Assembly (NCBI GenBank): GCA_031291725.1
Contig: JARLIM010000034.1
Coordinates: 124,001 to 188,000, forward strand
Source of the DNA: Acetobacteraceae bacterium
GTDB lineage: Bacteria; Pseudomonadota; Alphaproteobacteria; Acetobacterales; Acetobacteraceae
DNA: 64,000 bases
Reading direction: 5' to 3'
The translations under genes and the position numbers were made by a program. Position 1 is the stretch's first letter. Each line of letters starts with the position of its first letter. The notes beneath the pieces are model-generated. The model was not told where the DNA came from, did no database searches, and saw nothing but the letters and a program-made list of their open reading frames with translations. Below, in pieces: positions 44,017 to 49,799 of this stretch.

Positions 44017-44652
44017 TCACACCGCCAGTGTGGCCATTGCGCGGCGGGCGCGGTCTTCGATGCCGGCCCAGTTGCCCGCGCGCATATCGGCCAAGGGGGC
44101 TATCCACGAACCGCCAACGGCGACCACGTTGGGCAGGTTGAGATAGTCGCGCATATTGGCTTCCGTCACGCCGCCGGTGGGGTTGAAGCGCATCGCCGGG
44201 AACGGGCCGCCAAACGCCTTCAACGCGCCGACGCCGCCGACCTGTTCGGCGGGGAACAGCTTGACCACGCCATAGCCACGGATCATCGCCTGAATCAGTT
44301 CTGAGGCGGTGGCGATGCCCGGCACGAACGGCACGCCGAGCGCCATTGCCGCATCGAGCAATTCCACCGTCGCGCCTGGGCTGAAAGCGAAGGGCAGTTC
44401 CAGATCGCGCGCCAATTCCAGATCGCGACGTTGGGTGACGGTGCCCAGGCCGACAATGGCTTGCGGCACCTTCTCGCGGATCAACTTCGCAGCAGGCGCA
44501 CCGGCGGCGGTGCGCAGGGTGATTTCCAGCGTGCGCACGCCACCGGCCACCAAGGCGCGGGCGAGCGGGATGGCGTGATCGACGCTTTCGATGGTCAGCA
44601 CCGCGACCAGTCTGGCATCCGACAGCAGATCGGCGAGGGGGGTGGCGGTCAT
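44017..44652 (-). CDS. eda: 2-dehydro-3-deoxy-phosphogluconate (KDPG) aldolase
   Basis: 211 residues, the normal size. KDPG aldolase splits KDPG to pyruvate and glyceraldehyde-3-phosphate. The Schiff-base Lys is in VVKLFPAEQVGG, the general-acid/base Glu in LEITLRT, and GLGTVTQRRDLELA and FNPTGGV bind phosphate and carboxylate. The ATG at 44652 overlaps the kdgK stop by 4 bp. Last gene of gntR-kdgK-eda. Confidence 0.93.
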   Translation of the reverse strand: MTATPLADLLSDARLVAVLTIESVDHAIPLARALVAGGVRTLEITLRTAAGAPAAKLIREKVPQAIVGLGTVTQRRDLELARDLELPFAFSPGATVELLDAAMALGVPFVPGIATASELIQAMIRGYGVVKLFPAEQVGGVGALKAFGGPFPAMRFNPTGGVTEANMRDYLNLPNVVAVGGSWIAPLADMRAGNWAGIEDRARRAMATLAV

Positions 44653-45599
44653 ACGGATTCTCCTGGAAATGACATCGCGGGCATGGCGGCTTGCGGGATG
44701 ATCGCCCCGCGATGTTGCACCACGGTGCCAGCCAGACGGTGCCCGGCGCGAGCGGAATCTTCCGGCGAACAGCCCGACCGGCGGGCGGCCATATAGGCGG
44801 CGGCGAAACTGTCGCCGGCGGCGGTGGTGTCGAGCACATGCTCCACCGGGGCGGCCTGGACGAAGCAGCGTGCGCCGGGGGTGATGACGTGACAGGCGGG
44901 CGAGGCGAGTTTGATCACGCACTCCGCCACATTGGCCGCTTGCAGCCGGGCGGCGACGATGTCTGCGTCGTCGCTGCCGAACACGCCTGCATGGTCTTCC
45001 ACACTCGCCAGCACCAGATCGCTGGCTTCGAAGGCGGCGGTGTAGATTTCGCGCGCCAAGGCCAGGTCCGGCCAGCCGCGTGCACGGAAATTGGTGTCAA
45101 AGACGATCTTCACCCCACAGTCGCGCGCGGTCGCCAGCCCGGCGAACAGGCGCGCACGGCTGGATGGGTCGAACAGCGAGAGCGTGATGCCGGAGACATA
45201 GATCATCCCGGCCTTGACGAACGCCGCCTCGATCTCGCCGATCTCCGGCAGGGTGAACAGCCGCCGCACCGGGGCGGAATCGCGCCAATGGTGAAAGCTG
45301 CGTTCGCCCTGCGCGTCGGTGCGGATCAGATACAGGCCGGGCAGGGCCGCCTTCACACGCGGCACCAGCGAGATGCCGATGCCCTCCGCCTGCCACGCCG
45401 CCAGCATCTCATCGCTGAAGGCGTCATGGCCGAGCGCTGTGACGTAGTCCGTCGGTACGCCGAGCCGGGCGAGATAGAGGGCGGTGTTGAGGGTGTCGCC
45501 ACCGAATGCGCGGGTGATCATGCCGTCCGGGCGTTCGGACAATTCGATCATGCATTCGCCGATGCACAGCACCGGACCCAAAGGTGTTTCAGCTGGCAA
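44649..45599 (-). CDS. kdgK: 2-keto-3-deoxygluconate kinase (PfkB family)
   Basis: 316 residues of the ribokinase/PfkB family: CIGECMIELSER at the N-terminus, FGGDTLNTALYLARLG, and the anion-hole motif DTTAAGDSFAAAYMA with the catalytic Asp. It phosphorylates KDG to KDPG for the aldolase encoded next. The start is TTG at 45599, supported by GGAG 7 bases upstream and by an 11-bp overlap with the end of gntR. A later ATG would remove the substrate-binding strand. Confidence 0.9.
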   Translation of the reverse strand: MPAETPLGPVLCIGECMIELSERPDGMITRAFGGDTLNTALYLARLGVPTDYVTALGHDAFSDEMLAAWQAEGIGISLVPRVKAALPGLYLIRTDAQGERSFHHWRDSAPVRRLFTLPEIGEIEAAFVKAGMIYVSGITLSLFDPSSRARLFAGLATARDCGVKIVFDTNFRARGWPDLALAREIYTAAFEASDLVLASVEDHAGVFGSDDADIVAARLQAANVAECVIKLASPACHVITPGARCFVQAAPVEHVLDTTAAGDSFAAAYMAARRSGCSPEDSARAGHRLAGTVVQHRGAIIPQAAMPAMSFPGESV

Positions 45600-46353
45600 G
45601 TTGAGTCTCCAGGGTGCAGTCGAGCAAAGCGGGATCGATTTCGCGTTCGATGATGGAGAACATGCTGTCCATGAAGCCCATCAACTGATCCGATGCCGCC
45701 ACCGCACGCTCGGCATCGCGGTCGGCGACGGCCTGGATCATCGCCAGATGACTGTCCACCGTCTGGCTTAAGCCACCGCTTGGGGCGGCCCAGTTGTGAT
45801 AGACCCAGCCGATGCGACGAAAGATGGTGTGCAGCGGGCGCAGGGTGTTTTCCAGAAACGCCTCGCCGGTGGCAGCGGCCAGCAATTGGTCGATGCGGCG
45901 ATCAAGGCGGTTGAAGGTGGCAATGTCCATCGCCGCGCCGCGCTCGCTCAGCAGGCGGGCGATGTGCAGCAATTGGTTGCGATGGGTGGGGCCGGAGCGT
46001 TCCGCCGCCAGGCGCACGACGAATCGTTCCATGTCGCGCCGCAGCAACAACAGCGTCTTCTCGCGCGTCAGATCAATCGGCGCGATGCGCAGGCCGTGGC
46101 GCGGGCGGATGATGATCAGCGTGTCGGCGGCAAGGCGGCTGACGGCTTGATGAATGGGCGTGCGACCCAGTTGAACGACATTCTGTAAATCATTGATTGA
46201 TAGAGATTGTCCCGGCTTCAGCGCGCAGGTGATGATCAATTCTTCAATGCGGTCATAGGCCTGTTCAGCCAGCGGCAATGGACGACCCGGCGCGCGTTTT
46301 TCCGGTGATTTCCCGCGTGTGAGGCGTTCGGGCTGCGGGGTGTTGGAAGCCAT
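45589..46353 (-). CDS. GntR family regulator (FadR/FCD subfamily)
   Basis: 254 residues: an N-terminal basic tail, a winged helix (LIITCALKPGQSLSINDLQN, GRTPIHQAVSRLAADTLI) and an all-helical FCD effector domain (NRLDRRIDQLLAAATGE, SHLAMIQAVADRD) which usually binds a sugar acid with a metal. First gene of the gntR-kdgK-eda operon, divergent from the idn operon. A 24-bp palindrome starts 29 bp upstream of its ATG and is its probable operator, so it likely controls both directions in response to a sugar acid such as gluconate, idonate or KDG. Confidence 0.88.
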   Translation of the reverse strand: MASNTPQPERLTRGKSPEKRAPGRPLPLAEQAYDRIEELIITCALKPGQSLSINDLQNVVQLGRTPIHQAVSRLAADTLIIIRPRHGLRIAPIDLTREKTLLLLRRDMERFVVRLAAERSGPTHRNQLLHIARLLSERGAAMDIATFNRLDRRIDQLLAAATGEAFLENTLRPLHTIFRRIGWVYHNWAAPSGGLSQTVDSHLAMIQAVADRDAERAVAASDQLMGFMDSMFSIIEREIDPALLDCTLETQLAS

Positions 46354-46381: not shown

Positions 46382-46405
46382 CATATTGTGATATTTCACA
46401 GTATG
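46382..46405. promoter_or_regulatory. 24-bp palindromic operator between gntR and the idn operon
   Basis: CATATTGTGATA and TTTCACAGTATG are inverted copies matching at 10 of 12 positions, with an inner TGTGA-N4-TCACA. It is the only strong palindrome in the gntR/idn divergent region. The N4 spacing differs from the N6 of CRP sites, favouring the local GntR-type regulator. Confidence 0.55.
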
Positions 46406-46479
46406 CATTACGGTTAACGTCATCGCAATCATCGTGACACATAGCGTGTTACCGTGGGTGGGGGCGAGGGGAGGCGCGG

Positions 46480-46599
46480 TTGAAAATCACCAAGATCGAG
46501 ACTTTGCGCGCCGAGATGGCCGCAATTCTCCTCCGCCTTCCTGTGCGCTCTGAGCCTGTCAGCTGTTCTGATCTCATTGTCCGCCGGAGTGAAATCTGA
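46480..46599 (+). CDS. 39-codon ORF, probable remnant of an enolase-superfamily sugar-acid dehydratase
   Basis: Starts TTG with a strong GGGGAGG ribosome site 6 bases upstream and ends in a TGATG overlap with idnO. The product begins LKITKIETLRAEM, which resembles the first strand of mandelate-racemase/dehydratase-family proteins (often MKIT-IET-R), then diverges and ends IVRRSEI. It is far too short to be an enzyme. A gluconate dehydratase is the step missing between IdnO and KdgK, so an internal deletion leaving the two ends of such a gene is my favoured reading. A leader peptide that couples translation to idnO is the alternative. The homology claim rests on about ten residues. Confidence 0.45.
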   Translation: MKITKIETLRAEMAAILLRLPVRSEPVSCSDLIVRRSEI

Positions 46600-47366
46600 T
46601 GTCCACGAAGCTTTTCGATCTGTCGGGCAAGACCGCCCTGATCACCGGCTCCTCGCGCGGTTTGGGCCGGGCGATGGCGGAAGGATTGGCGGCGGCGGGT
46701 GCGGCGGTGGTGCTCAATGGCGTCGATGCGCAGCGCCTGTCCGACGCTGCCGCGCAGATGCGCGCGCAGGGTTACACCGTGCATGAGTCGGCGTTCGATG
46801 TGGTCGATGAAGCCGCCGTGCTGGCGGCCTTCGAAGCGTTGGATGCCCAGGGCATCGAGATCGACATTCTCATCAACAATGCGGGCATTCAGTTCCGCAA
46901 GCCGCTGGCCGAGCTGGAGACAGCCGATTGGCGGCGTGTGGTGGACACCAATTTGACGGCGGCCTTCGTGATCGGGCGTGAGGCGGGGCGGCGCATGCTG
47001 ACGCGCAAGCGCGGCAAGATCATCAATATCGGCTCGCTGATGAGCGGCCTCGGCCGCGTCACCGTCGGCCCCTACACGGCGGCGAAGGCGGGCATCAAGG
47101 CGCTGACGCAGACGATGACCGCCGAATGGGCCGAGCATGGCATTCAGGCCAATGCCATCGGGCCGGGCTATATGCTGACGGATATGAACAAGCCGTTGAT
47201 CGAGAACGAGACCTTCAACGCCTGGGTGGTAGGCCGCACGCCCGCGCGGCGCTGGGGCAACCCCGACGAGTTGGTCGGCACGGCGATTTTCCTTGCTTCC
47301 TCTGCGTCGGACTACGTGTCCGGCCAGATCATCTATGTCGATGGCGGCATGACCGCGATCCTTTGA
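46599..47366 (+). CDS. idnO: Gluconate 5-dehydrogenase / 5-ketogluconate reductase (SDR)
   Basis: 255 residues, classical SDR: FDLSGKTALITGSSRGLGRA, NNAGIQFRKPLAEL, and catalytic YTAAK, ending QIIYVDGGMTAIL. NNAGIQ-RKP is characteristic of gluconate 5-dehydrogenases. It reduces 5-keto-D-gluconate to D-gluconate (or the reverse). The ATG overlaps the stop of the 39-codon ORF by one base. idnD follows after 13 bp, which supports the assignment. Confidence 0.87.
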   Translation: MSTKLFDLSGKTALITGSSRGLGRAMAEGLAAAGAAVVLNGVDAQRLSDAAAQMRAQGYTVHESAFDVVDEAAVLAAFEALDAQGIEIDILINNAGIQFRKPLAELETADWRRVVDTNLTAAFVIGREAGRRMLTRKRGKIINIGSLMSGLGRVTVGPYTAAKAGIKALTQTMTAEWAEHGIQANAIGPGYMLTDMNKPLIENETFNAWVVGRTPARRWGNPDELVGTAIFLASSASDYVSGQIIYVDGGMTAIL

Positions 47367-47379
47367 AGGAATTGCCACG

Positions 47380-48411
47380 ATGAAAGCCGTTGTCATTCAC
47401 GCCGCCCATGATTTGCGCGTCGAGGATTTCGTCAATCCGCCGATGGGTCCGAATGATGTGGAGGTCCGCATCAGCAATGGCGGCATTTGTGGGTCGGATT
47501 TGCATTATTACCACGATGGCGGCTTCGGCACCGTGCGGGTGCGCGAGAAGATGGCGCTGGGCCATGAGATCGCGGGCGTTGTGGCCGCAATCGGTGCGAA
47601 GGTGACCGCCGTTCAGGTGGGCGACAAGGTGGCGGTCAATCCGAGCCTGCCGTGCAATGTGTGCAAATACTGCCTTGAGGGCAAACCGCGCCATTGTCTG
47701 GATATGCGCTTCTTCGGCAGTGCGATGCGCTTTCCGCATGTGCAGGGCGGGTTCCGCGAAATGCTGGTGTGTTCGGAAGTGCAGGCGGTGAAGCTGCCTG
47801 CCGGTATGGCGCTGGAACGTGCCGCCTTTGCCGAGCCGCTGTCGGTGTGTCTGCACGCCGCCAATCAGGCCGGGCAATTGCAAGGCCGCCGCGTGTTGGT
47901 CACCGGCACCGGGCCGATTGGCGCGCTGTGCATCATGGTCGCCCGGCAGGCGGGGGCGCGGGAGATTGTCACGACCGATCTGTCGGACGCCCCCTTGGCC
48001 ATCGCCCGCAAGGTGGGGGCCGATCTGGCGATCAATGTGCGCAACGATGCCGATCGGTTGAGCAAATTCAGCGCCGATAAGGGCTATTTCGACGTGGTGT
48101 TCGAATGCTCGGGCAGTGGCCCGGCCTTGGCCTCGGCAATTGCGGTGGCGCGTCCGGGCGCGGTGGTGGTGCAGGTGGGCATTGGCGGCGACATCGCCGT
48201 GCCGCTCAACGTGTTGGTGGCCAAGGAAATTCAGCTGCGCGGCACGTTCCGCTTCGATGCGGAATTCGATTGGGCGGTGGATTTCCTGGCCTCCGGTGCC
48301 ATCGACGTCGCACCCCTGCTGACGGAAATCGTGCCGATGGGCGATGCGGTGCGTGCGTTCGATCTGGCGTCTGACCGGTCGCGGGCGATGAAGGTTCAAT
48401 TGGCGTTCTAA
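47380..48411 (+). CDS. idnD: L-idonate 5-dehydrogenase (zinc alcohol dehydrogenase family)
   Basis: 343 residues. Catalytic zinc ligands sit in GGICGSDLHYYHDGG and LGHE, structural zinc ligands in CNVCKYCLEGKPRHC, and the NAD(P) site is VTGTGPIGALCIMVARQAGA. DMRFFGSAMRFPHVQGGF closely matches the equivalent stretch of E. coli IdnD. It oxidises L-idonate to 5-keto-D-gluconate. AAGGAA precedes the ATG by about 9 bases. The reactions of IdnD and IdnO feed gluconate towards KdgK and Eda encoded on the other arm. Confidence 0.92.
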   Translation: MKAVVIHAAHDLRVEDFVNPPMGPNDVEVRISNGGICGSDLHYYHDGGFGTVRVREKMALGHEIAGVVAAIGAKVTAVQVGDKVAVNPSLPCNVCKYCLEGKPRHCLDMRFFGSAMRFPHVQGGFREMLVCSEVQAVKLPAGMALERAAFAEPLSVCLHAANQAGQLQGRRVLVTGTGPIGALCIMVARQAGAREIVTTDLSDAPLAIARKVGADLAINVRNDADRLSKFSADKGYFDVVFECSGSGPALASAIAVARPGAVVVQVGIGGDIAVPLNVLVAKEIQLRGTFRFDAEFDWAVDFLASGAIDVAPLLTEIVPMGDAVRAFDLASDRSRAMKVQLAF

Positions 48412-48437: not shown

Positions 48438-49799
48438 ATGTCGTCACCAACTATCCCACAGGCGGCCATGAATGACGCGGTGCGTCATCTGGTCACGAAC
48501 TATAATCCGAAAGGCAACAAGATCGGCTGGCTGATGATGTCGTCGATCCTGGTGGAAGCCTGGGATCTGTACTCCATCGCCTTCGTGCTGGTGTTCATCA
48601 AGGCCCAGTACAATCCCGATCCGTTGCTGCTCGGCCTTGCCGCCGCCGCCACCCAGGGCGGCGCGTTGTTCGGGGCGATTGCCGGCGGCTGGTTGGCCGA
48701 CAAGATCGGCCGCCGCGTGATGTTCCTGGCCACGATGATCATGTTCATCATCGTCGCCTTGGCACAGGCTTTCGTGCAGAGCGTTGAAGTGCTGGTGGTT
48801 GTGCGCTTCATCCTCGGCGTGCCGCTCGGCTCGGACATCTCCAACGGCTACACCTACATCATGGACAGCATGGCCAAGGGTGAGCGCGAGGTGATGGGCA
48901 ATCGCTGGCAGTTCATGTTCGCGGTGGGCGAAGTGCTGACGCTTGCGGTGATTGCGGTGTTCCTGCTGATGAATCTTGACCACGAACTGGTCTGGCGCAT
49001 CACGCTCGGCCTGGGCGCTGTGCCCGCCCTGATCATTCTGCTGATGCGGCACGATCTGCCGGAAACCGCCGTGTGGCTGGTGCGTCGCGGTAAGTTCCGT
49101 GAGGCGAAGAAAGTGGCGATGGACATGTATAATGATCCGCTCGCCATGCTGCCGGATCACGACGTGGTGGTGCCGCAGCCGAAAGCCGGTGAGTTCCTGT
49201 CTGACCTCAAGAGCGACCCGATCCGCTGGCGCGCGACGATCTATGGCTGGATCGCCTGCTTCTGCCAGGGGTCTGAGTTCTCCACCTTCGGCTTCTATCT
49301 GCCGGTGCTGTTCGTGATGGTGGGCGTGTCCTCTGTGCTCGGCACCGATCTGGTGACGATGGTGCTGTTCACCTTTGCCGGTATCGCCGGTTGGGTTGGG
49401 CCGATGCTGACGCCGAAACTGGGCCAGCGCGGCATTGCACGCTGGGGCTTCGGCATTGTGTTCTTCTCGCTGCTGTTTGCGGCCTGGGCGATCTATGCCG
49501 GTCACACGATGCTGTTGCCGTTTGCGGCGGCCGCCATGCTGTGGGGCCATTATTGGGATGCGTCGAACTGCATGACCATCCCCTCAGTGGTCGCCAAGCC
49601 GCAATATCGCGGCACCGCCTCGGGCTTCAGCTATATGTTCGTCAAAGCGCCGTCATTCCTGGCGATCTTCCTGTTCCCGTCGCTGTTCGCAGCCATCGGG
49701 CAGGCTGGCGCGACGCTGTTCTGTGCGATTTTCCCGCTGGTGGGCTGGCTGGCCGCCACGTTCATTCTGCCGGAAATCTACGGCTATGAGCACGATTGA
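48438..49799 (+). CDS. MFS transporter, sugar-acid porter-like
   Basis: 453 residues with 12 predicted membrane segments. GGWLADKIGRRVMF is the sugar-porter-type motif between TM2 and TM3, and PETAVWLVRRGKFREAKK precedes the central loop as in sugar and metabolite:H+ symporters. The start has GGGGGAAA 9 bases upstream. Third gene after idnO-idnD, so uptake of L-idonate, 5-ketogluconate or gluconate is the likely job. Confidence 0.83.
   Translation: MSSPTIPQAAMNDAVRHLVTNYNPKGNKIGWLMMSSILVEAWDLYSIAFVLVFIKAQYNPDPLLLGLAAAATQGGALFGAIAGGWLADKIGRRVMFLATMIMFIIVALAQAFVQSVEVLVVVRFILGVPLGSDISNGYTYIMDSMAKGEREVMGNRWQFMFAVGEVLTLAVIAVFLLMNLDHELVWRITLGLGAVPALIILLMRHDLPETAVWLVRRGKFREAKKVAMDMYNDPLAMLPDHDVVVPQPKAGEFLSDLKSDPIRWRATIYGWIACFCQGSEFSTFGFYLPVLFVMVGVSSVLGTDLVTMVLFTFAGIAGWVGPMLTPKLGQRGIARWGFGIVFFSLLFAAWAIYAGHTMLLPFAAAAMLWGHYWDASNCMTIPSVVAKPQYRGTASGFSYMFVKAPSFLAIFLFPSLFAAIGQAGATLFCAIFPLVGWLAATFILPEIYGYEHD

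Follow-up and report, generated by a model that had tools for sequence, protein, structure and literature searches.

Organization of the idnO locus

The stretch of DNA that was analysed (the window, 64 kb) derives from an Acetobacteraceae metagenome-assembled genome (G000), and contains the genes of a presumed sugar-acid catabolic module, in which a 39-codon open reading frame (ORF) directly precedes an idnO-like gene (Table 1). All features originally described for this short ORF, its length, the TTG start codon, the GGGGAGG motif and the TGATG overlap with idnO, were confirmed in the sequence; in the overlap, the TGA stop codon shares bases with the idnO ATG at position 46599. A GGAG motif at positions 46586-46589, which lies inside the last part of the short ORF and 9 nt before the ATG of idnO, is likely the ribosome site of idnO itself. 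The gene content resembles that of the L-idonate/gluconate catabolic modules with enolase-superfamily dehydratases, which were reportedly described by Wichelecki et al. in 2014, and in which a dehydratase is located beside idonate/gluconate dehydrogenases, a KDG kinase and a KDPG aldolase, but in the window the local dehydratase appears to have been deleted. The genes downstream of the short ORF are intact: in comparison with bin G004, which belongs to the same genus, idnO and the adjacent alcohol dehydrogenase (ADH) gene showed dN values of 0.08-0.10 and dS values of 0.63-0.80, and the resulting dN/dS of about 0.13, which is an average over both lineages since the G004 split and cannot date the loss of the dehydratase, indicates that both genes have on average been constrained since then.

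Table 1. Features of the idnO locus in the window. The names idnO, ADH and KDG kinase are based on NCBIfam equivalog matches below the cut-off; the aldolase alone passes.
Feature	Position	Strand	Remark
KDPG/KHG aldolase	44017..44922	-	above TIGR01182 cut-off
KDG kinase-like PfkB kinase	44649..45599	-	below NCBIfam equivalog cut-off
GntR/FCD-family regulator	45589..46353	-	divergent
GTGATATTTCAC, presumed GntR operator core	46388..46399	.	between GntR and the short ORF; conserved in relatives
SD-like GGGGAGG	46468..46474	+	5' of the TTG start; identical ahead of the intact G004 gene
39-codon ORF, putative relic	46480..46599	+	dehydratase codons 1-12, then 17 unrelated codons, then codons 390-399 and stop
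N-terminal remnant (L/M)KITKIETLRAE	46480..46515	+	homology to dehydratase codons 1-12
Junction filler, 17 codons	46516..46566	+	source not convincing in intact gene, window or genome
C-terminal remnant SDLIVRRSEI and stop	46567..46599	+	codons 390-399 and stop
idnO-like SDR, gluconate 5-dehydrogenase family	46599..47366	+	intact; below equivalog cut-off
Zinc alcohol dehydrogenase	47380..48411	+	closest NCBIfam model L-idonate 5-dehydrogenase, cut-off not reached
MFS transporter	48438..49799	+	

The short ORF combines the two ends of a dehydratase gene

A short ORF by itself is nothing remarkable; judged from profile and DNA comparisons, the two ends of this one exceed chance. When the window was searched in six frames, a profile of the 12-residue N-terminus of the dehydratase scored 31.8 bits at the short ORF against 1.2 bits for the next best site, and a C-terminal profile scored 13.2 bits against 9.0 bits. 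Also at the DNA level both ends were recognized, since positions 46468-46515 align with the start of the intact G004 gene (85%, E 1.3e-8), and positions 46565-46648 with the end of that gene and the start of idnO (77%, E 7.3e-12). The two matches are independent, collinear and in the correct order, with position and strand unchanged, which argues for an origin from an MR/MLE gene and bears out the proposed likeness of the N-terminus to enolase-superfamily dehydratases. Conserved between the short ORF and the G004 protein are KIT-IETLR-E in codons 1-12 and SDLxVRRSEI in codons 390-399. Relative to the 399-aa gene, the length went from 1200 nt to 120 nt, a net loss of 1080 nt with the frame kept, and this agrees with the in-frame internal deletion that had been postulated. 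In contrast to functional MR/MLE dehydratases, the window thus retains 22 of the 399 codons and lacks the active site; codons 13-389 are gone, the 39-aa ORF gave no Pfam match, and the MR_MLE_N and MR_MLE_C domains with their catalytic residues were not found in it. Since residues that are invariant in 68 orthologs (e.g., E13, F14, N16, V17, and W19) are missing, the homology ends sharply. As far as sequence can tell, the short ORF, taken alone, is almost certainly the relic of an MR-type dehydratase gene.

Local alignments of the middle 48-51 nt of the ORF with the intact gene (both strands), the window and the genome yielded weak matches only. The best of these was with the collinear gene tail (22 of 42 positions without gaps, p about 0.014 against the tail alone), where the top offset led by one. 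A global alignment with cheap gaps, in which the filler became scattered across the gene, was dropped. The retention of the reading frame is not evidence of selection, since one third of indels would keep the frame, and a stretch of 16-17 random codons would lack a stop in about 60% of cases.

Intact and lost dehydratase genes in relatives

Relatives were retrieved by means of idnO. In bin G004, contig C26 of that bin carries an intact gene for a 399-aa MR/MLE (enolase superfamily) dehydratase directly upstream of idnO. This gene and the relic have the SD/TTG start GGGGAGGCGCGGTTGAAAATCAC, the end CGCCGGAGTGAAATCTGATG and the TGATG overlap with idnO in common. The G004 protein matched MR_MLE_N, MR_MLE_C and the structure 2POD over the full length, the latter being, together with 4DX3/4DXK and 3DIP, the nearest solved of the MR/MLE enolase-superfamily sugar-acid dehydratases. 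The original prediction was to be checked by looking in relatives for an intact gene of the mandelate-racemase type (or the IlvD/Edd type) at the same position. A mandelate-racemase-type gene is indeed present in G004, and among 80 GTDB loci that contain a close idnO, it directly precedes idnO in 54; another 3 have it at a different place in the locus, and 23 lack it. The canonical gene order in these relatives is a divergent GntR gene, the dehydratase gene, idnO and often an ADH gene. Relatives sharing the 39-codon ORF, which would have spoken against a relic, were not seen in the genus or in the 80 idnO loci, where either the full gene or other arrangements were found. Because no relative has the same short ORF, we consider it a relic rather than a conserved leader peptide. 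In the genome of the window (G000), an ortholog of the MR dehydratase was not found, and its paralogs are distant (best 29%).

A second contig of the G004 bin, C168, provides a further example of the gene head within the genus: its Eda, KDG kinase and GntR genes, its operator and the initial 134 codons of another dehydratase allele follow the order of the window. The 134 dehydratase residues shared by G004 contigs C26 and C168 (loci L038 and L245) are 89% identical, so that this bin holds two diverged module variants, as a result of either contamination or duplication; with 5% contamination, the gene content of the bin is less certain.

Tail-only remnants of the dehydratase gene were detected directly before idnO in three more genomes. 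In G001 (loci L010/L039), which belongs to the same genus, the tail VQRSDPTVRRSAL with its stop codon precedes idnO and adjoins an unrelated gene. Two Rhodospirillales/Acetobacteraceae metagenome-assembled genomes contain the tail AFERSGLTVRRSIL with its stop codon (L088) and a degraded tail, PPAVFERPGP, which was read by eye and had no score in the profile scan (L133). In G007, a remnant of the dehydratase was not recognisable. Based on these tails, the dehydratase has probably been lost more than once.

A second copy of the presumed operator core precedes an IlvD/Edd dehydratase gene

Between the regulator gene and the operon lies a conserved near-palindrome, as is characteristic of GntR/FadR-type operators. 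Matches to at least 10 of the 12 nucleotides of this core were present upstream of 45 of the 57 intact dehydratase genes, whereas shuffled versions reached at most 9 of 12, and judging by this motif, we presume that it is bound by GntR. A search of the whole G000 genome found the core GTGATATTTCAC exactly twice, in the window and at positions 20897-20908 of contig C26 of G000, 20 nt ahead of the ATG of an IlvD/Edd gene, where GntR may bind as well. The second copy has the form CGTGATATTTCACGA, which is also found before idnO in G013. Together, this core and the gene, which encodes a sugar-acid dehydratase of about 597 aa, occupy C26:20897-22721 (L190:3898-5722), outside the window. The protein matched the family over its full length and ends in the conserved His of the IlvD/Edd sugar-acid dehydratases (CcXyDHT 5OYN, 7M3K, and RlArDHT 5J84), a conserved feature of such enzymes (PMC11316719). 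Among solved structures, 7M3K and 5OYN (Caulobacter D-xylonate dehydratase) are closest to it, and it aligns with both over its length; the latter enzyme is reported to favour D-xylonate and D-gluconate (PMC9795676). By homology, the C26 enzyme may act as a gluconate dehydratase, as the ancestral MR enzyme presumably did.

Unlike its orthologs, the C26 IlvD/Edd gene carries an exact copy of the operator core: among the 27 orthologs compared, none was preceded by one, with 10 of 12 matching positions as the best in G001 and 6-9 in the others. In the genus, the idnO-bearing genomes G000, G001 and G007 have the IlvD/Edd ortholog and lack the MR gene, whereas G004 has the MR gene and lacks the IlvD/Edd ortholog, so that no idnO-bearing genome of the genus combines the two dehydratases. 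Two relatives without a close idnO, G002 and G003, likewise have the IlvD/Edd gene, indicating another role there. Outside the genus, IlvD/Edd homologs (59-61%) are located at most 5 kb from idnO, on the opposite strand, in 8 rhizobial loci without the MR gene, although these loci, like the betaproteobacterial ones mentioned below, are phylogenetically clustered and do not represent independent events.

The step from gluconate to KDG had been described as missing, which holds for the module but not necessarily for the cell, since other sugar-acid dehydratases are encoded elsewhere in the genome. Two bypasses had been suggested as well, and of these, supply from elsewhere gains support from the operator-bearing IlvD/Edd gene, while a gluconate kinase route found no support. 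Gluconokinase (TIGR01313 and TIGR01314) was not found in the 92%-complete G000 genome, in which the sole FGGY match is a glycerol kinase, and although Edd is present, a phosphorylated route from gluconate is therefore unsupported.

A model for the probable displacement of the dehydratase

In the model that we propose, a GntR-controlled dehydratase-idnO-idnD operon began with the gene of an ancestral MR-type dehydratase, which presumably converted D-gluconate into KDG. Of this gene, codons 13-389 were lost, and about 17 codons of other sequence remain at the junction. As the deletion spared the operator region, the start signal and the ribosome site of idnO, this gene and the later ones could still be expressed. 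A deletion reaching into the operator region or the first ribosome site at the 5' end, or into GGAG at the 3' end, would harm idnO, which accounts for the survival of both ends without the need for a function of the peptide. Most likely, the IlvD/Edd enzyme of contig C26, under presumed control of the same GntR regulator, would now provide the lost step in trans, which amounts to a non-orthologous displacement with operator gain. The relic, the loss and the second copy of the operator core are seen in the sequence itself, while the substrate, GntR binding at both sites and the flux through the replacement are inferred. We consider this complete account likely, and the missing step was probably replaced rather than abandoned. 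A more far-reaching version, in which an unrelated enzyme encoded at a distant locus joined the regulon via operator gain and displaced the MR enzyme, and in which ribosomes that translate the retained 39-codon ORF still pass on to the downstream gene, is doubtful.

The relic might also stand on its own, with a pathway step that is broken or decaying and a coincidental operator copy on contig C26. The tails in G001, L088 and L133 fit such repeated gene loss, and no exact operator precedes the IlvD/Edd genes in G001 or G007. Moreover, the 12-mer occurs outside the module at about 0.3 sites per genome in 60 relatives. However, the single non-module site in G000 happens to lie just ahead of a sugar-acid dehydratase gene, and for a stray 12-mer to fall within 100 nt of one of about nine such dehydratase genes, we estimate a chance on the order of 1e-4. 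Together with the intact state and low dN/dS of the other operon genes, this makes mere decay improbable.

It is equally improbable that the step is supplied not by the C26 enzyme but by ManD-type or DgoD-type enolase-superfamily enzymes encoded on contig C1 of G000. This contig contains, within 5 kb (C1:177849-182946, L185), a D-galactonate dehydratase gene that scored above the cut-off and a ManD-type gene. ManD-type genes that are 74-79% identical to the latter adjoin idnO, in place of the MR-type gene, in five betaproteobacterial loci (L092, L094, L102, L117, and L154), which favours such a supply. On the other hand, the ManD-type gene of C1 has its own divergent regulator gene, GntR-like in appearance as far as its sequence goes, and lacks an exact operator copy.

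A functional leader peptide or translational coupler that drives idnO, which would be compatible with an origin as relic, seems unlikely to the same degree. Its strong SD sequence, open frame, TGATG overlap and the native signals kept at both ends are what a coupler would require, but no relative possesses the 39-codon ORF, idnO has its own GGAG, and an open, in-frame junction would be expected by chance in roughly 1 in 5 cases. Moreover, RNA folding at the relic was not unusual (z -0.41), and a terminator was not detected there. An assembly artefact, whereby a gene that is intact in the organism was collapsed, is very improbable, for although the deletion is known from a single assembly and the G004 bin suggests that close module variants co-occur in samples, the 48-51 nt of the junction are absent elsewhere in the genome and would not be created by k-mer collapse, the divergence of both remnants from G004 is similar to that of the neighbouring genes, and the rest of the gene is on no other contig.

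Non-orthologous gene displacement in sugar pathways is known from other systems (e.g., PMC5507952). As in known cases, the step at the idnO locus has apparently been taken over by an unrelated enzyme family, but in the present case remains of the displaced gene can still be seen, and the replacement has apparently acquired the operator in trans. As a rule, gene loss and non-orthologous displacement are deduced from the lack of a gene, whereas at this locus a relic, an intact ancestor within the genus and a candidate replacement that shares the operator core can all be seen, so that it could be tested whether the operator was gained before or after the deletion. A literature search for the MR subgroup together with gluconate 5-dehydrogenase gave no match. 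Of note, at least three distinct dehydratase types fill the place next to idnO, which calls for caution in naming a substrate from one family.
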